A stretch of 40,261 nt of DNA from Thermoplasmata archaeon (GCA_021802205.1 JAKAAT010000011.1:1-40261), one strand, 5' to 3'. Positions 26,356 through 39,599 are shown, counted from the stretch's first letter. The notes: generated by a model not told the origin, from the letters alone. Numbers and translations: made by a program.

Positions 26356-28194
26356 TCAGTTAATTGATATGTTTTTAAGATCGTTTATAATGGTAGCACC
26401 AGAGTATTCAGAGATTATATTGTTATAAGTGGGAAGAAATCTATTGTCATTTTTGTCTATTATATACATTTTTGATACTTTCTTTATTTTTCTGGAGATG
26501 TCCTCAAGGTCATTCTGGGGATTTCCTGGAAACACATTTCCTCTTCCATCAGATATGAGTAAAGAGATTGTCCTGAATTTTTCAAATGTAGATAGATTGT
26601 ATATTTCTTTCAGTGCATCGTAAAGTGGAGTTTTTCCTTCACTCTTTATATTGTTTATATGATTCCTTAAAGATGTGAAGTTTCTTGAAAAATTCATTAC
26701 AAGTTTTGATTGCTGGCCAGAAAATGTTAGCAATGCTACACGGCTACGCATCAGATATAGTTTTTTAAGCAGCATATCTGAAAAGTCCTTTGCCAGCTTT
26801 ATTCTGGAGCTAAAATTCATCGACCTGCTGGAATCAATGGCTATTATAAATGGAACAGCACCTGATGAAAATGAATCGTTGAGAACTACAGTACTGCTAT
26901 TTATTTCTGTGAAACCAGAAGTCCATGTATTCAGGAGCGATGATCTCATATCAATATGGTTTCCAGATTTTTTCCCACGGTGTTTGTATTGCCTGGCGAT
27001 TCCCGATCTACCCGAAGTCCGTGTTTCCATACTGTTTTCTGTTTTCACCTGTATTTTTGTTATTTGATCTTTTTTGGAATTCTTATCCTGTTTATCCTTA
27101 TCTGCACCTACACCGTTTCCTGATTTATTGTCATTATTACTCTGGTTATCCTGATCTTTCTGTTTTGAGTTCATGTTTTCCTTATCTTCATTATTCTGCT
27201 TATTATCAGGATCATTATAGTCGTAATCTGGCTTGCTATTTCCCTTCTCTTTGATCCTGTGATTGAGAGCAAACTCTAACGCCTTCTTTAAATCTTCTTC
27301 ATTTACATCCTTTCTGCCGTTATATGCCGCGATGGCTTTTGCTGTTTTTACTGAACTTATCATCGCTCTGTTGCTCAGGGAATTTTTCAGTACTGTATCC
27401 GCTATGAACATCAAAAATTCTCTCCTGATTGTAACATATGGAAGTATATCTCTGGCTTTCATTATCCTTGATTTAATCTTTATATCATCATCTTCAAATT
27501 TACTGATAAATTCTGATTTATTTGCATCAAATTCCTCAACCCTGCCTGATATTTGAAGCAGAATTTCAGGTGATTCCGGCATTCTTCCCTCTACGGAAAT
27601 CCCAAATCTATCCAGCAACTGGGGCCTGAGTTCACCTTCCTCCGGATTCATTGTTCCAACAAGTATGAATCGAGCAGGGTGAATGTATGACACGCCTTCC
27701 CTCTCAACTATATTTACACCGGAGGCTGCTGCATCCAGGATGGAATCAACTATGGAGTCATCCAGCAGGTTAACCTCATCTATGTAAAGAATTCCACGGT
27801 TTGCTTCACCTATCAGCCCCTCCCGGAGTACAGATTCACCCTTTATTGCATGTGAGATATCCAGTGAACCAACTACCCTGTCCAGGGTTGTGCTGTTCGG
27901 AAGATTCACTATCCTGATCTTCATTTCCTCTGTTTCCAGTTTCCCCTTTTTCTGTTTTTCAATGCATTCATCGCATAGTTCACCATCCGGGTCGCAGTGG
28001 AATCTGCAGCCTTTCACGGCCTTTATTTCAGGCAATACAGATGATAATGACCTTACCATTGTTGATTTTGCTATGCCCTTGGGACCTGTAATCAGTAATC
28101 CACCTATTCTGCTGTCTATTGCATTAACTATCAAGCCAAGTTTGATATCATCATTGCCCACAATGGCGGAAAACGGAAAATCATAAGTTCTCAT
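26356..28194 (-). CDS. AAA/VWA chelatase subunit (ChlI-ChlD fusion type) paired with CobN
   Basis: A 612-residue protein with an AAA ATPase half and a von Willebrand A half, like magnesium/cobalt chelatase motor subunits. Walker A is GPKGIAKST (37-45) and Walker B ILYIDE (135-140). The four cysteines C63, C67, C74 and C77 form the CX3CX6CX2C knuckle common in this family. Residues about 314-375 are a low-complexity linker rich in Asn, Asp, Lys and Gln. The MIDAS motif DSSRS begins at Asp454. It supplies ATP-driven remodelling for the CobN subunit upstream, with which it overlaps by 4 bases. Which metal and ring are used cannot be told; cobalt into a corrin precursor is the default guess. Confidence 0.92.
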   Translation of the reverse strand: MRTYDFPFSAIVGNDDIKLGLIVNAIDSRIGGLLITGPKGIAKSTMVRSLSSVLPEIKAVKGCRFHCDPDGELCDECIEKQKKGKLETEEMKIRIVNLPNSTTLDRVVGSLDISHAIKGESVLREGLIGEANRGILYIDEVNLLDDSIVDSILDAAASGVNIVEREGVSYIHPARFILVGTMNPEEGELRPQLLDRFGISVEGRMPESPEILLQISGRVEEFDANKSEFISKFEDDDIKIKSRIMKARDILPYVTIRREFLMFIADTVLKNSLSNRAMISSVKTAKAIAAYNGRKDVNEEDLKKALEFALNHRIKEKGNSKPDYDYNDPDNKQNNEDKENMNSKQKDQDNQSNNDNKSGNGVGADKDKQDKNSKKDQITKIQVKTENSMETRTSGRSGIARQYKHRGKKSGNHIDMRSSLLNTWTSGFTEINSSTVVLNDSFSSGAVPFIIAIDSSRSMNFSSRIKLAKDFSDMLLKKLYLMRSRVALLTFSGQQSKLVMNFSRNFTSLRNHINNIKSEGKTPLYDALKEIYNLSTFEKFRTISLLISDGRGNVFPGNPQNDLEDISRKIKKVSKMYIIDKNDNRFLPTYNNIISEYSGATIINDLKNISIN

Positions 28195-31100
28195 TCATTT
28201 TCACCCTCGATTTCCATATACTCTTTTTCCAGTTTCTCCTTCATTTCTTCACTGGCATGCCATATATCCCTTTTATATGCCTCTATCATTCTCGATGTGA
28301 TCTCTGAAAGCGCCCATGGATTCTCCTTCTTGAACCATTCCTTCATTTTTTCATCCATGATGAATTTTTCAGCTATGTTGTTGAAAATATTATCGTTGAC
28401 CATTCCAGTTGTGGCTCCCCATCCGTAGAGATGCTCGATTTTTTTAAGCATTTCCGTAGCACCCCTGTATCCGAAATTCTTCTGGGCATCAATCCACTTT
28501 TCATTCAGCAACTTTCCTATAGCTGTACGCTCTATCTCTTCCTTCATTGTCCTTACTTTTGGTTTGTTTGGATTAAATGTATCCTCGAACATCAGTGACG
28601 GATTTGACCCGCTCTTTTTAGCCATCAGATAGAACCCTCCAGCATATGAGTAATTGCAGGAATCGTCGTTTATATCAATCTCATCTATTTCCCTTTTATG
28701 TATAATGGTCTCTATATCCTTTGATATTGAAAGAAGCTGTTCCCTGGATTCCTTTCCGAAATTGTTCTTACCATAAGAATAGCCCATCCATTCAGTAAAT
28801 ACCTCCGCTAAATCCTCTTCCTTTTCCCATTTGGAGGATTCGACGGCATTATTCACACCGGAACCGTATGATCCGGGCTTTGATGAGAATATTCTGTCGA
28901 GATGTCTGTATTTCCTGTGATGCTTGATAATGAAGTTGCTGTCCTCATCCTCATCAAGTTCCGATACCTTTTTTACAGCCATATCTATTAATTCTATTAT
29001 ATTGAAAAGATTATCACGGACTATTCCGCTGGATTCCACAACTACATCAATTCTCGGTCTTTTCAGTATATCCATAGGAATGGGCTTAACATCCTTGACC
29101 TTTTTTGTTCCCTCCTGCCATACAGGCTCAACGCCCAGTGTGTAAAGTATCTGTGAGATGAGTTCGCCATCTGAACGGTATGCATCCGTTGACCAGAGAA
29201 CGAATCCGATTGTTTCGGGGAATTTATTTTCTTTTTTATATTCAGTTTCAATGAGTTTGTTTGCAAGTACAACACCTACCTGCCAGGCAGAGTGGCTGGG
29301 GATTTTAAATGGATCAACAGCATAAAAATTTCTACCTGATGGGAGCACATCGTATCTTCCCCTTGTAAGAGAACCTGATACTCCCGGTTCTATATATTTC
29401 CCATTCAGAGCCGATAAAAGACTGTTTCTCTCATTTTCTGGAGAATATTTTAATTTCTCGATTATTCCGGACTCAAGCGCCGGCAGCTCACCACCGTTGT
29501 TCAGATACCCATCTATTATCGTCTCTGCTGTTTCTTTACCCTTATTTTTATATAAAGATTCGTCAAAGCGGGTTGCAGTGATAACATAATCCTTTATATC
29601 ATCTGTTTCCAGCTCCTTTCCATATACGTAAAGGCCCTTAGTAACCACAGAATCCTTGAAAAGATTTAATCTATGCTCTATTTCATGGGTGGCCTTATGT
29701 GAATCCCCGAAGTCTATGGATAATCCTATTTTATCTGAAAGTTTCTGGATTTTATCCAGTATCATGCCCTCTCTTGGTTTGTTTTCGGCTTTTTCGGTCT
29801 CTTCATAGTCATCTATTAGATCCTCGAGCTCCTTTATTTCCTCAGGAACCTCATCATAGGCTGTAGGTGGTGTTATATAATCCAGTAATACAGCATAACT
29901 TCTTCTCTTTGCGATGATTCCCTCACCGGGCACATTTGTTGAGTAAAGGTATAGATTGGGGATTTCTCCAATGGAAATTTCCGGGAAGTCTGAAGGTGAG
30001 AGACCAAGACCCTTTCCCGGAGTAAATTCCAAAGTACCATGGGTTCCTACATGGATAATAGCATCGGCTCTGAATATCTCCTGAATCCATTTATAAAACG
30101 CAAGCCAGTAGTGTGTTATAGGTGTCAGTGAGTCATGTATTGTCCTGATGCTATTGTCATTATCTGCAAAGGTTATCCTCTTTGGCTGTATTCCTATGAA
30201 GATATTGCTAGAAATTATTCCGGGTATCTCTATTTTCCCGTCTTTGAGCATATAATCCCTTTCATTATTCAGCTCGCCCCATCTGGATAAGATCTGATCT
30301 TTAGAATCTTCTGGAAGTTCTTCGAAAAATTTGCTGTACTGGTCAACAGGCATACTATAGACTGAACCACCTCTATTTTTTATATCTTCAACAGAAGTCC
30401 ATTTACCCTCAGGAATCGCTTTCCTCTCCATGATTGTCTTTATCAGTGATTCTCCATCCTCGGGAACGTAATCTGTAGAGTAGCCATTGGATGTCAGTAG
30501 CTGCATTATGTTTGAAATGGAATTAAGTGTGTCCAGCCCTGTTGCAGTTCCGATATTAGCCTCAAGATCCTTGAATGAGGATCCTGAATGAAGTATGATA
30601 GCGATTTTTTTATCGCTGTTTTTCTTATATTTGAGGTCAATCCATTTGCTGATCCTTCCAGCCATATAACTTACCTGATCCTTAACCGGGACAAGCTCCC
30701 TGTATACGGTACCGCGATCATATATCTTTTTAATAAGACCTATTAGAACTGGCTCTATTGTGCCGTCCATTTCTGGAAGCATTGCACTCATTATTGTTGA
30801 AACTACATCCATGCCAGAAGAATCCAGCCATTCTTTTTCCTCTTTATAATAGTAAATAAGACCCTGGAAAACCGGTACACCCAGTTCCATAAGTGTAGTT
30901 TTGTCCTCGTCTTTAATCAGTGAAAATGAGAGTAAGTTAATAATCGCATCTACAGCAGGTTTTCCATCCTGATAAAAATACTCGTGAATGCATTCCTCGG
31001 CACTTTTAATATTTCTGGATTTATCCCCGAATCCGTTTGTGAACACAGGGATTGCCGATATTTTTCTGCTGTTCAGTTCATTAATAATAGACTTCACAAT

Positions 31101-31601
31101 GCCGGTATCGTTATCCACCCACGCTGTGCGGTAGAATAGTATACCGGCCTTCCTGGAATAATCTTGATTGCCGTAGTTATATATACCCGAGAAAGGCATT
31201 TCTACTGGATCTTGATATTTGCAGCCATCGTTCAGGCTTTCGATGAATAGTATCATATTTTTGATATTTTTATACCCACCGTAGAAATAATAATTAGATA
31301 CTTTTTCCTCAACATATTTGCTTACTGTGGAATAACTGCTGAGTATTGGATCTATGGCAATAACATTCTTTTTATTTTTGATTACAGATTCAATATCTTC
31401 CAAGATATTGCTGTATATGTTCTCTCCTGAAAAATGATGTATAAAAACTGCATCGGCATTCTTAATAAAATCAACGAATTGAGAGTTTACAGGATCAAGT
31501 CTTGGATATTTTATCTCTATCTCGTTTCCGGTTTCCTCAGCTGCCCTCAAAAAGGACTGTATAACAGAACCATTCCAGCCAATAAGTACGGCAAACTTCA
31601 T
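28191..31601 (-). CDS. cobN: CobN/ChlH-family metal chelatase large subunit
   Basis: A 1136-residue porphyrin/corrin-binding chelatase subunit. The family block IHVGTHGTLEFTPGKGLGLSP...IPNLYLY...NVPGEGIIAKRRSYAVLLDYITPP is clear from about residue 512 to 580; NNAVESS and the C-terminal MIEAYKRDIWHA region also fit. CobN inserts cobalt into hydrogenobyrinate diamide; ChlH inserts magnesium into protoporphyrin. In archaea such genes are usually annotated CobN. It is first in a two-gene operon with the AAA/VWA subunit. No other corrin genes are in the window except the precorrin-2 dehydrogenase about 24 kb away. A TATA-like box at 31621-31630 supports ATG 31601. Confidence 0.92.
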   Translation of the reverse strand: MKFAVLIGWNGSVIQSFLRAAEETGNEIEIKYPRLDPVNSQFVDFIKNADAVFIHHFSGENIYSNILEDIESVIKNKKNVIAIDPILSSYSTVSKYVEEKVSNYYFYGGYKNIKNMILFIESLNDGCKYQDPVEMPFSGIYNYGNQDYSRKAGILFYRTAWVDNDTGIVKSIINELNSRKISAIPVFTNGFGDKSRNIKSAEECIHEYFYQDGKPAVDAIINLLSFSLIKDEDKTTLMELGVPVFQGLIYYYKEEKEWLDSSGMDVVSTIMSAMLPEMDGTIEPVLIGLIKKIYDRGTVYRELVPVKDQVSYMAGRISKWIDLKYKKNSDKKIAIILHSGSSFKDLEANIGTATGLDTLNSISNIMQLLTSNGYSTDYVPEDGESLIKTIMERKAIPEGKWTSVEDIKNRGGSVYSMPVDQYSKFFEELPEDSKDQILSRWGELNNERDYMLKDGKIEIPGIISSNIFIGIQPKRITFADNDNSIRTIHDSLTPITHYWLAFYKWIQEIFRADAIIHVGTHGTLEFTPGKGLGLSPSDFPEISIGEIPNLYLYSTNVPGEGIIAKRRSYAVLLDYITPPTAYDEVPEEIKELEDLIDDYEETEKAENKPREGMILDKIQKLSDKIGLSIDFGDSHKATHEIEHRLNLFKDSVVTKGLYVYGKELETDDIKDYVITATRFDESLYKNKGKETAETIIDGYLNNGGELPALESGIIEKLKYSPENERNSLLSALNGKYIEPGVSGSLTRGRYDVLPSGRNFYAVDPFKIPSHSAWQVGVVLANKLIETEYKKENKFPETIGFVLWSTDAYRSDGELISQILYTLGVEPVWQEGTKKVKDVKPIPMDILKRPRIDVVVESSGIVRDNLFNIIELIDMAVKKVSELDEDEDSNFIIKHHRKYRHLDRIFSSKPGSYGSGVNNAVESSKWEKEEDLAEVFTEWMGYSYGKNNFGKESREQLLSISKDIETIIHKREIDEIDINDDSCNYSYAGGFYLMAKKSGSNPSLMFEDTFNPNKPKVRTMKEEIERTAIGKLLNEKWIDAQKNFGYRGATEMLKKIEHLYGWGATTGMVNDNIFNNIAEKFIMDEKMKEWFKKENPWALSEITSRMIEAYKRDIWHASEEMKEKLEKEYMEIEGENE

Positions 31602-33169: not shown

Positions 33170-33225
33170 ATGACGTCTCCATAATGCAGTGCGCTGATGA
33201 CGCCTACTGGTGGTTAAAATGTTAG
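33170..33225 (+). promoter_or_regulatory. leader with two tiny chained reading frames
   Basis: ATG 33170 opens a 4-codon frame (MTSP) ending TAA at 33182-33184. That stop overlaps by one base the ATG at 33184 of a 13-codon frame (MQCADDAYWWLKC), whose TAG at 33223-33225 lies just past the HyfC-like ATG (33219). The first ATG sits near the predicted transcript start. This could be a leader peptide that couples translation to the operon, or a coincidence. Confidence 0.35.
33209..33213 (+). promoter_or_regulatory. ribosome binding site deciding the start of the HyfC-like gene
   Basis: GGTGG lies five bases before ATG 33219 and overlaps the alternative in-frame GTG at 33210, so ATG 33219 is the better start. 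Confidence 0.5.
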
Positions 33226-34160
33226 AGTTAATCCTGGAGACGCTTTCGCAGTACTTATTCGTTGTTCTTTTTTCACCACTTCTTATAGGAATTTTTGAAA
33301 AGTTCAAGGCAAATGTTGAATCAAGGAGAGGGCCAAGCATATTCCAGCCATATTATGATATATTCAAGTTACTGAAAAAGGAGACTGTAATTACTGAAAA
33401 TTCCTCCAGATTATTCTTATACGCACCTTATATGGCATTCGGCATATATTCGCTCATAGCCCTCATTATACCTGTATTCATGACAAAACCCATAATTTTT
33501 ACCGCGTCAGGTGATTTCTTTGCCGGTGCAATATTATTTTCCCTGGCTGCATTCATAAAAATAATAGGGACAATGGATTCAGGCAGCAACTTCTCCTCCA
33601 TGGGGGCATCAAGGCTCATGTCCTTCAACTTCTTCAGTGAAGGTACACTTATAACAGTATTCTTCGCAGTGGCACTGATAAGCGGCACAAACAATCCATA
33701 CACAACAAATCATTATCTTATCAGCCATCCACTTTCCAACCTTAGCCTTGTACATATCTTCGCAGTGTTTGCATTTTTCATGATATTTATGTATGAATTC
33801 GGAAAGATGCCAACACAGAGTGAGGGAAACCAGGAAATGGGTATGATTGATTCTGGCATAGATTATGAGTACAGTGGAAAGGCACTTGCAGTAAACAAAT
33901 GGTCATCCTATATGAAAGTGTATCTTCTCGGGTCAGTGTTAATCAATGTATTCCTTATTCCGTGGGGAATGTTCAATACATTTCCCTTATTTTTCCTCAA
34001 TGCTATTGTAATGTTTGGTAAATGGATCTTCCTCATAATAATTGTACTGATAGTTGATACATCCCTGGCGAAATTGCGCCTGTTCAAGGTCATAGACTAT
34101 CTTGCAGTAGCATTCACATTTTCAATACTATTTTTAATACTTACTGAGGTGATCGCATGA
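33219..34160 (+). CDS. HyfC/NuoH-like membrane subunit of an energy-converting-hydrogenase-related complex
   Basis: A 313-residue protein with about eight membrane segments, of the HycD/HyfC/NuoH family that anchors the peripheral arm and helps form the quinone-like or ion path. GIFEKFKANVESRRGPSIFQPYYDIFKLLKKE (about 25-58) is the conserved first loop, with the R-R-G-P-S and Q-P-x-x-D-x-x-K-L elements. MYEFGKMPTQSEGNQEMG in the middle holds the acidic cluster of this family, and DTSLAKLRLFK lies near the end. It overlaps the next gene by 4 bases. The start is ATG 33219, not GTG 33210, because of the ribosome binding site. Confidence 0.92.
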   Translation: MLELILETLSQYLFVVLFSPLLIGIFEKFKANVESRRGPSIFQPYYDIFKLLKKETVITENSSRLFLYAPYMAFGIYSLIALIIPVFMTKPIIFTASGDFFAGAILFSLAAFIKIIGTMDSGSNFSSMGASRLMSFNFFSEGTLITVFFAVALISGTNNPYTTNHYLISHPLSNLSLVHIFAVFAFFMIFMYEFGKMPTQSEGNQEMGMIDSGIDYEYSGKALAVNKWSSYMKVYLLGSVLINVFLIPWGMFNTFPLFFLNAIVMFGKWIFLIIIVLIVDTSLAKLRLFKVIDYLAVAFTFSILFLILTEVIA

Positions 34161-34798
34161 ATATAGTTTTTACGGTAATATACCTGCTTGCAGCACTCAT
34201 TGTAGTTACAGGATTTTACATTCAGAGCAATAAATATTTAAGATCCATGGTCATGACACAGGCATTTCAGTCATTCCTCATTGCCCTCATAGCAATACTT
34301 CTAGGTATAGAGCTGAAACAGTATACATTTTTCATTCTGGCAGTACTTGTTATACTGTTGCGAAGTTTTCTGGTCACATATTTCCTTGCAGCGAAGATAC
34401 CCAAGAATAAAAATTATTTATACGAATCGAAGCTTCCTACCACTTACTATCTCCTTGTGGATCTTGCATTTATTGTTGTTTCCATATTTATAGTATATTC
34501 AATATCTTTTATTCATATAGTTTCACGCATATTTCCTGAAAGCAATATCATTCTATTTCCCATGTTACTGTTCTTCCAGGGGCTCTTTATTATTGCATCC
34601 AGGAGGAGAACTATTGCACAGATACTGGGTTACATAGAGGAAGAAAATTCCCTGATACTCATGGGCACCTTTATTCTTCCCGTTCCCATAATAATAGAAA
34701 GCAGTGTATTTCTGGATGTGCTAATACTGGTTGTAATTTTTTCAATTATCAGCATAGAGAAAACCGAGCATAAACCGGTGGAGGAGTTGAGAGGATGA
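34157..34798 (+). CDS. HyfE-like membrane subunit (NuoK-related)
   Basis: A 213-residue protein with about seven hydrophobic segments, matching HyfE, whose C-terminal part is related to NuoK. The FQGLFIIASRRRTIAQILGYIEEENSLILMG segment (about 139-170) is the conserved region, with the acidic pair in a glycine/tyrosine context. It sits in the membrane arm. ATGA overlaps at both ends show tight translational coupling with the neighbours. Confidence 0.88.
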   Translation: MNIVFTVIYLLAALIVVTGFYIQSNKYLRSMVMTQAFQSFLIALIAILLGIELKQYTFFILAVLVILLRSFLVTYFLAAKIPKNKNYLYESKLPTTYYLLVDLAFIVVSIFIVYSISFIHIVSRIFPESNIILFPMLLFFQGLFIIASRRRTIAQILGYIEEENSLILMGTFILPVPIIIESSVFLDVLILVVIFSIISIEKTEHKPVEELRG

Positions 34799-36120
34799 TT
34801 TACGAAATACTCATACTGATTATACCTCTGATTGCAATGGGATTCTATAAAAATATTAAGATAACCAGCATAATAGCGGCAATTATTGAAATGTTCCTGC
34901 TTATTCCACTTTACTTTAATTTATCTGATTCCGGATTCTTTTTCATTGACCATATTACGTATATATTCATTCTGATGGTGAGCTCCATTTATCTTATGTC
35001 CTTGATCTACTCCAGAAAATATATCCATAATGTGAAGAATAAGGGAATTTCTGAAAATGTTTATTATATGCTCATGGGATTCTTCTATGTTGCCATGGAG
35101 TTTGCCCTCATGGTAAACAATTATGGTTTCATGTGGGTGGGAATAGAAACTACCACAATATCATCTGCGCTACTCCTGATCACAGAGAAATCCGATATAT
35201 CACTGGAGGCAACATGGAGGTACATAATTATAGTCTCAGCTGGTGTAACATTTGCTTTCATATCTGTTATACTAATATACTACGCCTTCGGAACACTTAC
35301 AGTTACGGTAATTCTATCTAAAGGAATCAAAGACAGCCTAGCTGTAAGGCTTGCCGTGGGAATTGCCCTAGTAGGATTCGGCACGAAGGTGGGTGTTTTT
35401 CCCGTACATACATGGCTTCCCGATGCCCATAGCGAGGCCCCTGCTCCCGTTAGTGCAATGTTCTCCGGAGTATTACTGCCTGTAGCACTGTATGTGCTTT
35501 ACAGAATTTACGAAATATATCCAATGCGGGAAGTATTCGTCTGGGCTGGAACCATTTCAGTACTTTTTGCAGCTATATTCCTCGGATATCAGAAAAACTA
35601 CAAGAGAATGTTTGCATATTCAACAATGGAGAATATGAACATAGCGCTCATAGGTTTGAGCACGTTTACCTTCGCCGGGCTCGTGGGTTCCCTTCTACTT
35701 CTACTTTCACACAGCTTCGGTAAGGCCGGTGCATTTTACTCCTCAGGAAATGTTTATGAGATGTCAGGGACAAAATCAATTGATGGTGTTGGTGGATTAA
35801 TAAGAAATAAAGCGAGTGCCGCTTCTATGCTCCTATCATCCTTTGCCGTAACTGGAACTCCCCCGTTCGGAACATTCTTTGGTGAATTCCTTATACTTTA
35901 CTCAGTGCTATCCATACATTTCTATGCACAGTTCGGTATAATAGTACTTTCACTGTTCCTCGCTTTTGTATCAATAAATTTCAATGTATCAAAAATGCTG
36001 TTCAGGGGCAAATCAGAATACAGCCAGTCTGGAATTAATACTGCTATACCCCTTATAGCAGCAATAATATCTGTATTCATAGGAATTGTATTCCTGGTGG
36101 TGTATCATGAAATATTATGA
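34795..36120 (+). CDS. HyfF/NuoN-like antiporter-type membrane subunit
   Basis: A 441-residue protein with about 13-14 membrane segments from the proton-pumping NuoL/M/N and Mrp antiporter family. WVGIETTTISSALLL (about residue 112 on) has the key membrane Glu; GTKVGVFPVHTWLPDAHSEAPAPVSAMFSGVLLP (about 196-229) has the conserved Lys and the PDAHSEAPAP loop; a buried Lys pattern follows (KNYKRMFAYSTMEN, LLSHSFGKAGAFYSSG). It probably moves protons or sodium. It overlaps HyfE by 4 bases and the next gene by 14. Confidence 0.92.
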   Translation: MIYEILILIIPLIAMGFYKNIKITSIIAAIIEMFLLIPLYFNLSDSGFFFIDHITYIFILMVSSIYLMSLIYSRKYIHNVKNKGISENVYYMLMGFFYVAMEFALMVNNYGFMWVGIETTTISSALLLITEKSDISLEATWRYIIIVSAGVTFAFISVILIYYAFGTLTVTVILSKGIKDSLAVRLAVGIALVGFGTKVGVFPVHTWLPDAHSEAPAPVSAMFSGVLLPVALYVLYRIYEIYPMREVFVWAGTISVLFAAIFLGYQKNYKRMFAYSTMENMNIALIGLSTFTFAGLVGSLLLLLSHSFGKAGAFYSSGNVYEMSGTKSIDGVGGLIRNKASAASMLLSSFAVTGTPPFGTFFGEFLILYSVLSIHFYAQFGIIVLSLFLAFVSINFNVSKMLFRGKSEYSQSGINTAIPLIAAIISVFIGIVFLVVYHEIL

Positions 36121-37261
36121 ATTCGGAGACAAAACCGGAAGGTATGTAGGAAGAACAGAAAAATACGATGTTTACACATCAACACTTACAGAGGCAGATA
36201 AAGAAGAAAATGATAATGAAGAAAAGACCCAGGGGGAAATATATTTCAATTATGGGCCATCAGCAGGCGGACTGAGGGAATCAGTAAATTTCCAGATCCT
36301 TACGCCTGGAGAGTCCATAAGAGATGTTATCATAAACTCCGGTTTTAAAAATAGAAATATCAGCATAATCGGTGATAGTATTTCAGATGCCATGCTAAAG
36401 GTAGAAAGAATCAATGGGTTTCATTCAGCATCACACAGCATAGCTTATGCCCTTGCCGTAGAGGACGCTTTGAATATTGAGAATGATGATTTAAATGATG
36501 CAAGAATTGTAGAAATTGAACTTGAAAGGATAAGATCCAATATTGATGTAATAAAAGGGTTATGTGAATCTGCAGGCTTTGCCGTGCCGGAAAAACAGCT
36601 TCTCCTTTTGAGAGAGGAGGTTGCAAGAATAATTTCCGGTGCTTTCGCACATAGATATTATTTTTCTGTAAACCGCATAAACTCTATTGAAGGGGATTTT
36701 TCCAGAATATCACTCAGAACCGTTGAGAAACAGTTCAGGTCCATCTATGAAGGTCTGCTTTCTTCCAAAATATTCCTTGATAGGATACAGGAAAACGGGA
36801 TTGTATTAAATCCGATATCTACTGGGCCCGCTGCCCGTGCTGGAAATTTCAGATATGATGCCAGATTAGATTCTAAGTCTCTCATATATGGAAAATTTAA
36901 TACTGTGCTTGAAAAGGATGGTGATACATTTTCCAGATTTCTGGTGAGGGCAGAAGAAATATTTGAATCTATAAATATAATAGAATCGTACGGTGTTAAA
37001 AGGATTTTCAGAAAAAATAAGATGGAATTGAGTGGCTCTGGTGATGGTACTGCCAGGATAGAATCACCTGCCGGAGACCTGTTCTATTATGTAAAAATAA
37101 AGGAGGGCAAGCTGGCTGATATACAGATGTCACCGCCCTCATACCTTAATATTCGGAATTTCAGATCTGCACTGAGGAATAAGAATATTTTCACCGATTT
37201 CTTTTTTGTATGGGAGAGCTTCGGCATCTGGATATCGGAACTGGAGGTGAAGTTTCAGTGA
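36107..37261 (+). CDS. hydrogenase-large-subunit-like protein (HyfG/NuoD family) without NiFe ligands
   Basis: A 384-residue protein of the NuoD/group 4 hydrogenase large-subunit family. The NuoC-like N-terminal domain of HyfG is gone, replaced by about 40 residues with an acidic stretch (TEADKEENDNEEK). The family core starts at NYGPSAGGLRESVNFQILTPGESI. Where hydrogenases have R-I-C-G-I-C there is R-I-N103-G-F-H106; where they have D-P-C-x-x-C near the end there is D364-F-F366-F-V-W369. All four NiFe ligands are therefore absent and no hydrogen activation is expected. I use ATG 36107, preceded by GGTGGTG; the frame opens earlier at 36086. The small subunit starts with a 4-base GTGA overlap. 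Confidence 0.88.
   Translation: MKYYEFGDKTGRYVGRTEKYDVYTSTLTEADKEENDNEEKTQGEIYFNYGPSAGGLRESVNFQILTPGESIRDVIINSGFKNRNISIIGDSISDAMLKVERINGFHSASHSIAYALAVEDALNIENDDLNDARIVEIELERIRSNIDVIKGLCESAGFAVPEKQLLLLREEVARIISGAFAHRYYFSVNRINSIEGDFSRISLRTVEKQFRSIYEGLLSSKIFLDRIQENGIVLNPISTGPAARAGNFRYDARLDSKSLIYGKFNTVLEKDGDTFSRFLVRAEEIFESINIIESYGVKRIFRKNKMELSGSGDGTARIESPAGDLFYYVKIKEGKLADIQMSPPSYLNIRNFRSALRNKNIFTDFFFVWESFGIWISELEVKFQ
37243..37250 (+). promoter_or_regulatory. ribosome binding site deciding the start of the small subunit
   Basis: GGAGGTGA, a perfect match to the archaeal anti-Shine-Dalgarno complement, lies seven bases before GTG 37258. It argues for this GTG over the upstream in-frame ATG 37210, which would overlap the preceding gene by 52 bases. 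Confidence 0.6.
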
Positions 37262-37857
37262 ACTGGTTCATCAATGGCATCAGAAAGAGAATACAAACCG
37301 AGAAACTGGATCAATACAGGGTTATGTATCCCTCTGTACTGGAGGGGATGAGTGATTATAACTGCCCCACGGAAGCACTCAGGGATGGAAAATGGGATAT
37401 GGATAAATGCATATTCTGCAGGCAGTGCGATCTGGATCCAACAGGAAATCAGGATACCTATTCTGTAGAGAAAGCGATTCCGAATATATTCAAAAAATCC
37501 CTGTATCTTTATCCTGTGGACTCTGGAACATGTGGTGCCTGCAATGTTGAATTCACTACCTTGTTTTCCCCACAGTATGATTCCAGCAGGTTCAAAATTT
37601 TCATGGCAAATACTCCCAGGCATGCCGATGCTCTGGTTGTTATGGGAGTTCATACAGAGGGGATGGAGAGGGTTCTTCAGGAGGCGTATGATGCCATGCC
37701 GGAACCGAAAGTTGTCATAGGGCTTGGTGCGTGTGCGTTGTCTGGCGGCATTATTGGTAGAGGTGCCATGGAGAAATATGATATCCATATTGCAGGATGC
37801 CCACCGACACCGGCAGCGATCCTCAAAGCAATAATAGAGGCGAGGGATAAAAAATGA
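37258..37857 (+). CDS. hydrogenase-small-subunit-like protein (HyfI/NuoB family) with an added half-ferredoxin segment
   Basis: A 199-residue iron-sulfur protein. The proximal cluster site is complete and of hydrogenase type: C92-G-A-C95, C159 in GLGACALSGG and C181 in AGCPPTP. Before it, residues 36-57 read C36-P-TEAL...C51-IF-C54-RQ-C57, the CP plus CxxCxxC arrangement that in two-cluster ferredoxins holds one 4Fe-4S cluster. Neither NuoB nor E. coli HyfI has this segment; it may replace the separate HyfH/NuoI ferredoxin subunit, which is missing from the cluster. The start is GTG 37258 from the ribosome binding site. Overlaps of 4 bases at both ends. Confidence 0.9.
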   Translation: MNWFINGIRKRIQTEKLDQYRVMYPSVLEGMSDYNCPTEALRDGKWDMDKCIFCRQCDLDPTGNQDTYSVEKAIPNIFKKSLYLYPVDSGTCGACNVEFTTLFSPQYDSSRFKIFMANTPRHADALVVMGVHTEGMERVLQEAYDAMPEPKVVIGLGACALSGGIIGRGAMEKYDIHIAGCPPTPAAILKAIIEARDKK

Positions 37858-39599
37858 TATATTACTATATACCGCTCATAGCTGTTTTCCTTGCTTCTCT
37901 AATTTCCATAAGATATAGAACTGCCGGTTACATAATTACTGCTATAGCTTCTATTCTGTTTTTCCTTTTCACATTCAAAATTTTTGATTACATAACGTAC
38001 TTTTACCTGATAGCAGCCATAGTGTGGATAATAACATCTGTATTTTCCATTTCATATTCAAAGAAATATGGAAGATGGCTTGCTCCACTGTTCATATTGA
38101 CCATAGCAGGTATGATGACAATTCTGTATGCAAATAATTTCCTGGTTTTCATAACAGGCTGGGAAATTATGTCCATACCTGCCTATTTAACCGTGGCAAT
38201 AAACAAGAGAAACGATATAGAAGCATATATATTCATGCTGTTCTCAGAAATAAGCACTGTACTGATTATAACCGCTGCAGTGCTTTCATATTACTATACC
38301 GGTACATTTAATTTTACTGGACTTTCCAGTGATGTTGTCCTGCTCATATTTGCCATAGGGGCTATGTCTAAAATGGGATTGACGCCCTTCATGATAAGTG
38401 AGTGGCTTCCCATAGCACATGGAAGTGCCCCAGCCAATTCATCTGCAATTTTCAGTGCAACAATGACTCTCATGGGTGTATACGGAATATTGAAAATAGC
38501 TATTCTTTCTCCAGTTTCCATTGACATTGGTATACTATTTATTATTATAGGTGTGATCTCCGTACTATTCGGTGCGCTCTATGCGTATATTTCTGAAAAT
38601 ATGAAATCTCTCGGCGGTTTCAGTACCATAGAAAATAATGGAGTGCTGATGGCTGCAATAGGGCTATTCATTGCTGTCAATGATAGTGTGTTAAAAGAGT
38701 TTGTCCTGATTTCCATTGCCATCTTTGCCATGGCACATTCCATAGCAAAAACAGGGCTGTTCATATCCATTGGTCATACAGGAGTTGAGTATTTCAGTGC
38801 GGTTACGGGAGGTAAGGATACTGTAAATCAGGCAGGTAAATTTTTTGCAATGTCCTCACTTTCCGGGCTGTTTCCATCACTGGGCGGCCTAGGGATCTGG
38901 ATGATATTAGAGTCTTTTTTCATGGGTGCCTACCTATATGGCCCTCTGGGGATTGCGTCGATTATAGCCGGTTCCCTGATTGCTATGGGAGAGGGATTTG
39001 CCACTGCTGCAATGCTGAAAATTTTCTATTTCACCGATAGTCACAGGAGATCCAGCGGAAAAAATCTGGAGAATTATACAATACTCGGAACCGGAATCAC
39101 TCTTGTATTTCTGTTTGCCATGTCATTCCTGATTATTGGAAAGAACTATATATCCGGCATACCCTCTGTTCTTGTGTTCAATGGTCTTATGATCGAATCA
39201 CGTCTCGGTGTTTCTGATTTCGGGCTCATAACTCCTCTGTATATTCTTATACTTTTAACGGTATTTACGACAATTGTTTTCCTAGTCTTCGGAAAACCAA
39301 AGGCAAGAATTGCACACAGGTGGAACGGTGGGGTTGAGAATGACCAGTACTACAATTCGTTTACCTATTCAAACAACATAAGACTCATACTTAAAAGGAT
39401 ACTCAGAACCACCAGTACAGATGAAAACAGGGTAGAAACTGTTGATGTATTCTGGATGATCATGATAAATATTGCTATGGCATACAGAAAGTTTGCTAAA
39501 TTTACAGCATATAAAATCATGAACAGCAGAATATCCGCTTATATTACATACATGATAGCTGCCTTCATATTGATAATTATAATAGTATCCCTGATCTGA
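37854..39599 (+). CDS. HyfB/NuoL-like antiporter-type membrane subunit
   Basis: A 581-residue protein with about 15-16 membrane segments. FITGWEIMSIPAYLTVA (about residue 99-115) has the membrane Glu; GAMSKMGLTPFMISEWLPIAHGSAPANSSAIFSATMTLMGVYGILK (about 168-214) is the HyfB form of the antiporter core. It should be the second ion-moving subunit of the complex. The C-terminal region has a charged loop (FGKPKARIAHRWNGGVENDQYYNSFTYSNN) typical of HyfB. It overlaps the small subunit by 4 bases and is the last gene of the cluster; 130 bases then separate it from DUF211. Confidence 0.92.
   Translation: MIYYYIPLIAVFLASLISIRYRTAGYIITAIASILFFLFTFKIFDYITYFYLIAAIVWIITSVFSISYSKKYGRWLAPLFILTIAGMMTILYANNFLVFITGWEIMSIPAYLTVAINKRNDIEAYIFMLFSEISTVLIITAAVLSYYYTGTFNFTGLSSDVVLLIFAIGAMSKMGLTPFMISEWLPIAHGSAPANSSAIFSATMTLMGVYGILKIAILSPVSIDIGILFIIIGVISVLFGALYAYISENMKSLGGFSTIENNGVLMAAIGLFIAVNDSVLKEFVLISIAIFAMAHSIAKTGLFISIGHTGVEYFSAVTGGKDTVNQAGKFFAMSSLSGLFPSLGGLGIWMILESFFMGAYLYGPLGIASIIAGSLIAMGEGFATAAMLKIFYFTDSHRRSSGKNLENYTILGTGITLVFLFAMSFLIIGKNYISGIPSVLVFNGLMIESRLGVSDFGLITPLYILILLTVFTTIVFLVFGKPKARIAHRWNGGVENDQYYNSFTYSNNIRLILKRILRTTSTDENRVETVDVFWMIMINIAMAYRKFAKFTAYKIMNSRISAYITYMIAAFILIIIIVSLI

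Follow-up and report, generated by a model that had tools for sequence, protein, structure and literature searches.

The 40,261-nucleotide contig JAKAAT010000011.1 (positions 1-40261; referred to here as the window) of the Thermoplasmata archaeon genome GCA_021802205.1 carries a six-gene operon for a membrane complex of the energy-converting hydrogenase-related (Ehr) type, which is probably an ion pump linked to ferredoxin, its acceptor being neither protons nor sulfane sulfur. In the reading that we prefer (probability about 0.6), ferredoxin would bring electrons in, an organic acceptor would be reduced in the former NiFe cavity, and ion translocation would be coupled to this reduction. The Ehr class already has its name in the literature (PMC4378227, PMC6349859, PMC10284858), and the features by which two of these papers define it (PMC6349859 and PMC4378227) were found together: a large subunit homologous to group 4 hydrogenases and NuoD, loss of both CxxC ligand pairs, and group 4-type small and membrane/antiporter subunits alongside. 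The Ehr identity had already been proposed in an earlier note on this DNA, and it was borne out, as the NiFe site is gone while the electron-transfer small subunit and the antiporter modules are intact.

Operon Structure

The host genome is a 1.75-Mb draft (85% complete) whose congeners include Ferroplasma acidarmanus Fer1. The six genes lie co-directionally on the + strand from 33219 (or GTG 33210) to 39599 in the order C-E-F-G-I-B:

33210-34160, + strand: C, HyfC/HycD/NuoH-like membrane subunit; likely start ATG 33219 (alternative GTG 33210); Pfam NADHdh, 117.9 bits
34157-34798, + strand: E, HyfE-like membrane subunit; NCBIfam hydrogenase 4 membrane subunit, 38 bits, below the curated cut-off of 136
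34795-36120, + strand: F, antiporter-like subunit HyfF; NCBIfam NF005042, 565.6 bits, above cut-off
36110-37261, + strand: G, large subunit with NuoD/HycE fold, without NiFe ligands; Complex1_49kDa, 61.6 bits
37258-37857, + strand: I, small subunit; GTG start (ATG 37210 also open); Oxidored_q6, 77 bits
37854-39599, + strand: B, antiporter-like subunit HyfB; NCBIfam NF005046, 621.5 bits, above cut-off

These gene calls and profile matches agree with the six-gene complex and gene order described before. The assignment of E also rests on its position and on homologues in about 70 operons, and G scored 22.2 bits against the NiFeSe_Hases profile, below cut-off. When GTG 37258 is taken as the start of I, the junctions overlap by 4, 4, 11, 4 and 4 bases in order, which matches the earlier description of 4-base overlaps at all junctions but one; this GTG, which yields the 4-base overlap, also lines up with the start of the Fer1 homologue.

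Fate of the NiFe Ligands

The large subunit has 383 residues and only one cysteine (C152), a position that is Cys in 39 of 75 homologues; with a single cysteine, no alignment can supply four Cys ligands. The ligand positions were determined in an alignment of HycE, HyfG, five other NiFe large subunits, MbhL, four complex I NuoD/Nqo4 sequences and Ehr homologues. HycE C241, C244, C531 and C534 correspond to N102, H105, W374 and E377 (M1 at 36110), and the HycE numbers used for the mapping (E193, D529, C531) match the published formate hydrogenlyase structure (PMC9474812). From a conserved Asp onward, the C-termini of HycE (VSDAPLIIGSLDPCYSCTDR), our protein (FTDFFFVWESFGIWISELEV) and an Ehr relative (FTDFSFAWESFGFVIAEVDR) align without any gap, as does E. 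coli NuoCD, and the counterpart of DPCxxC is therefore GIWISE. The two sites are as follows:

36413-36424, + strand: N102-G-F-H105, N-terminal CxxC ligand site, aligned with HycE C241/C244
37223-37240, + strand: G372-I-W374-I-S-E377, canopy Asp and C-terminal CxxC ligand site, aligned with HycE D529/C531/C534

The claim of the earlier note that every NiFe ligand had been replaced thus holds for the loss of all four, and two of the four replacements had been misassigned. The change of RICGIC to RINGFH was confirmed as N102/H105, one lower than the numbers 103/106 given before; DPCxxC had been equated with DFFFVW (Phe366, Trp369), and W374 and E377 of GIWISE take the place of that pair. DFFFVW (37196-37213) was rejected since its D363 aligns with a conserved Asp that precedes DPCxxC by nine residues. 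Among the 75 homologues, the first site is N in 63, the second H in 52 or F in 16, the third W in 60 or Y in 7, and the fourth E in 68 or D in 7. Four loci from Thermoplasmata metagenome-assembled genomes (MAGs; L136, L137, L138, L140) keep the first ligand Cys only (ERYCGPLS) and have lost the other three, a partial loss comparable to the state described for Pyrococcus MBS. A predicted structure of the large subunit (AlphaFold, pLDDT 93) found its best PDB fold match in 7z0s_E, which is E. coli HycE. The complex thus descends from enzymes that handle hydrogen, and, judged from its sequence, its large subunit is unable to bind their NiFe centre.

In the large-subunit tree, the 41 Ehr rows grouped in a single clade (100/100) that excluded both NiFe group 4 and complex I; complex I was nested among group 4, and three bacterial plasmid relatives adjoined the Ehr clade (99/98; midpoint root). 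A placement inside the true hydrogenases, which the earlier note had named as evidence that would count against it, was not observed. A single clade of Ehr and complex I was mildly rejected by the approximately unbiased test (p-AU 0.03), a result on which we do not lean. HypD was not found in any of ten family genomes (the host and nine others), and it was present in both hydrogenase-bearing genomes searched alongside. Nor was another NiFe large subunit that might complete the complex, a further possibility raised before, found in the host genome or four near-complete Ferroplasma genomes; weak matches in three family genomes were Ehr itself. Homology and gene names are all that speak for a functional hydrogenase with a NiFe site made of other ligands or housed in another large subunit; the lone cysteine, the separate clade and the results for HypD and NiFe large subunits already contradict this idea, and we consider it practically untenable.

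A Distinct Conserved Pocket

The remaining pocket residues were mapped from the structure paper cited above (PMC9474812), in which the canopy Asp (HycE D529) is called strictly conserved. This Asp is Gly in all 41 Ehr rows (G372 here), canopy Arg478 has given way to A321 here and, across Ehr, mostly to Ser, Gln, Pro or Ala, and the histidine of GPxHP has become Ala, Thr, Ser or Met in Ehr. Lys80 and Phe366 are invariant and His181 occurs in 39 of the 41 rows, and the proton-donor Glu of the beta1-beta2 loop (HycE E193, here E57) is retained together with R395 (R243) and E437 (E283). The complex I quinone residues His38 and Tyr87 (Nqo4 numbering), both present in 4/4 complex I rows, are replaced by R56 and G103; in Nqo4, His38 sits in the loop GPQHPSTH38G and Tyr87 is the Y of RMDY. 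Glu377 corresponds to an acidic residue of complex I. We also considered H105 as the equivalent of His38, and this was rejected, H105 being aligned with the non-conserved Nqo4 His89. The host genome encodes a separate complex I NuoD (L075:1088-2200), which keeps the Tyr (RMDY) and the loop His that the Ehr of the same cell lacks.

As read from the alignment, the pocket is conserved, yet it corresponds neither to a NiFe site nor to the quinone site of complex I. We suggest, tentatively, that the archaeal Ehr clade may represent an additional catalytic type within the complex I superfamily, one that would reduce an unrecognised organic substrate (not protons, quinone or sulfane sulfur) while driving ion translocation, with Lys80, Asn102, His/Phe105, His181, Phe366, Gly372, Trp374 and Glu377 as its cavity set.

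Small Subunit and Membrane Arm

In the small subunit, a NuoI/HyfH-like half-ferredoxin at the N-terminus is joined to a NuoB/HycG-like domain, and the model of this subunit (AlphaFold, pLDDT 90) matched HycG (7z0s_G) best. The cluster cysteines of the small subunit, said to be kept in the earlier note, are all eight retained: C52, C67, C70 and C73 in the half-ferredoxin and C108, C111, C175 and C197 in the NuoB-like domain (numbered from ATG 37210), each conserved in 72-77 of 77 rows. The proximal-cluster motif CGAC, a hydrogenase-type CxxC, is found in 77 rows and aligns with MbhJ/HycG.

These cysteines bear on whether the complex could be a sulfane sulfur reductase like Pyrococcus MBS with an open-coordinated proximal cluster. 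MBS and MBX are likewise group 4-derived and ferredoxin-type and have lost the NiFe site, and the ferredoxin-type small subunit and the sulfur-rich habitats would fit such an enzyme. However, two of the four large-subunit Cys persist in MBS, where a shortened loop leaves three proximal-cluster Cys (PMC7684303), whereas our large subunit has no ligand Cys and the proximal motif is an MBH-type CxxC with four Cys. The MBS mechanism therefore does not carry over, and we hold this alternative to be very improbable.

From the sequence, the membrane arm is complete, with NuoH-like C, HyfE-like E and the antiporter-like F and B bearing the charge axis. The membrane Glu and Lys residues noted before in both antiporter-type subunits (E118, K198, K310 and E364 in F; E104, K173, K299 and E353 in B) proved to be 99-100% conserved. 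All six genes are under strong purifying selection: dN/dS was about 0.02-0.11 against a close relative, and about 0.03 for C against a 94%-identical homologue. The dN of the membrane subunits (0.02-0.07) was below that of the cap subunits (0.08-0.09), a slower evolution that would suit a redox-silent cation/proton antiporter with a retained hydrogenase-like cap. One bacterial relative without proximal-cluster Cys points the same way, but the eight Fe-S cysteines are kept in about 75 archaeal homologues and the pocket residues are conserved, and we think such an antiporter improbable. That relative, on the Mycobacterium branderi plasmid pJCM12687 (L177:10081-10875), has a NuoB-like subunit with DTGSNGSDEWE, GTDAISGG and GAPASP in place of the proximal-cluster cysteines, so it may have no proximal cluster; its Ni ligands are also lost.

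Distribution

The six genes formed one operon in nearly all of 40 family loci fetched for context and in most of 76 named loci, including Fer1 (whose homologue is about 70% identical), Acidiplasma aeolicum, Sulfolobales archaeon Acd1, Metallosphaera, Marsarchaeota and DHVE2. The order was C-E-F-G-I-B in nearly all loci and F-G-I-B-C-E in three (L115-L117). The large-subunit gene is split into two open reading frames in two genomes (L141:9782-11064 and L048 of E-plasma, G002:C3:752725-753917; G034:C3:233309-234488), and E-plasma has a second, unbroken copy elsewhere in its genome. Ehr operons were also seen on contigs binned as Micrarchaeota MAGs (L106, L139), which may be explained by misbinning or by a genuine transfer from Thermoplasmatales hosts; the L106 small subunit lacks the half-ferredoxin cysteines. 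Upstream of the operon in the window, on the opposite strand, a CobN-type chelatase lies beside a ChlI/ChlD-like AAA/VWA protein (26356-31601, - strand), a metal chelatase pair.

Candidate Acceptors and Donors

Menaquinone seems the most plausible single acceptor in Ferroplasma, although we propose it with considerable doubt; because the cavity is without the complex I quinone residues, another acceptor is about as likely. MqnA/MqnD homologues were found in 11/11 family genomes tested. They were not found in the tested genomes of DHVE2 (f2; three genomes), f5, f6 and f7, where the pockets differ; MenB had no match in the tested DHVE2, f6 or f7 genomes, and the MenB-like matches of f5 were below cut-off. 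The co-occurrence of pocket and pathway, which is confounded by ancestry, hints at possible menaquinone use in this sub-lineage.

On this basis the complex could be viewed as a compact version of complex I, with menaquinone being reduced in the cavity that once held NiFe. The NuoD fold, the two antiporter subunits and the acidic Glu377 agree with that view, as do the menaquinone-pathway homologues, which track the Asn102-Trp374-Glu377 pocket and are absent from tested genomes with other pockets. On the other hand, His38, Tyr87 and the canopy Asp are replaced, the small subunit has the hydrogenase-type CxxC and not the CC of complex I, the tree test mildly disfavoured a grouping with complex I, and the link between pocket and pathway is confounded by phylogeny. 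We therefore regard it as rather unlikely, while still the strongest competitor.

A further alternative is a formate hydrogenlyase-like assembly using an unlinked formate dehydrogenase, as had earlier been annotated for Fer1; the Fer1 cluster was discussed by Yelton et al. 2013 (PMC3750248), and coupling of formate dehydrogenase to Ehr has been proposed elsewhere (PMC6349859). FdhA was above cut-off in the host genome and in 6/6 other genomes tested. However, neither FdhA nor a HycB-like linker subunit was found in or near the operon; in single-contig genomes FdhA lies tens to hundreds of kb away and is never a recurrent neighbour. H2 production would be impossible, and no formate dehydrogenase complex was found in Cuniculiplasma (PMC5155288), a genus with an Ehr-bearing MAG (L132). 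An assembly of this type is thus improbable here. Across the clade, no recurrent neighbour gene that would name the donor was found around the operons.

Discussion

Redox-driven ion translocation is suspected for the Ehr family. In the mechanism that we favour, a soluble ferredoxin would deliver electrons at the half-ferredoxin cluster, from which they would move via the proximal cluster into the former NiFe cavity. There a small organic two-electron acceptor would be reduced and protonated via the retained Glu57 and an Arg243/Glu283 path, and this reduction would power the translocation of protons (or another cation) by the two antiporter-type subunits; alternatively, the reaction may run in reverse at the cost of the acidophile's large proton gradient. 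A soluble ferredoxin is favoured because the complex has two four-Cys motifs and lacks any module for NADH, F420 or formate. Several points weigh against this mechanism. We infer both the donor and the acceptor; the quinone residues and the canopy Asp are absent (R56, G103, G372); Ferroplasma already has complex I, which would make another ferredoxin:quinone pump partly redundant; and menaquinone is unlikely to serve the whole clade, as DHVE2 carry Ehr without a match to MqnA/MqnD or MenB in three genomes.

Complexes of this kind are already known. The literature on Ehr includes Coppi 2005 and Marreiros et al. 2013, as these are cited in PMC4378227, and in 2014 an Ehr whose genes are syntenic was described from Sulfobacillus (PMC4378227). 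Yelton et al. 2013 described 'putative group 4 hydrogenases' of Ferroplasma and other acid-mine Thermoplasmatales without both Ni-binding motifs (PMC3750248). The Ehr of F. acidarmanus Fer1, Sulfobacillus and comammox Nitrospira resemble ours in their group 4-like subunits, lost Ni motifs and kept antiporter subunits. We found nothing that defines the archaeal clade against other Ehr except that its pocket has residues of its own (N/[HF]/W/E with invariant K80, F366 and G372). Six genes of F. acidiphilum, FAD_0579-0584, are presumably the counterpart of this operon. They were listed as Mrp/hydrogenase subunits (PMC5473848).

E. coli Hyf/Hyc share homologous subunits with the complex, HycE being the closest fold with Glu193, R395 and E437 kept here; unlike them, it lacks the Cys ligands, canopy D529/R478, the NuoC-like domain, HycB/FdhF, and the maturation protease and Hyp genes. 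With complex I (NuoD/Nqo4, Fpo) it has in common the NuoD fold, an acidic residue at the last ligand position and the lack of NiFe, but it differs in having no His38/Tyr87, Gly for the canopy Asp, a proximal CxxC instead of CC, and six genes. The Hyc-like plasmid operons of M. branderi and Burkholderia multivorans have the identical order C-E-F-G-I-B and have lost the Ni ligands, with longer large subunits (495-506 aa) and other pocket residues (E/A/C/G, S/D/T/G).

The present analysis contributes a corrected residue map and evidence that the pocket is distinct and conserved. Ehr complexes occur widely, and the map indicates that this clade has lost the NiFe ligands, the complex I quinone residues and the canopy Asp and has gained a conserved set of its own. 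The lost and gained residues narrow the acceptor and name the residues to mutate, and the complex is also present in relatives with named strains, such as Ferroplasma acidarmanus Fer1 and Acidiplasma aeolicum.

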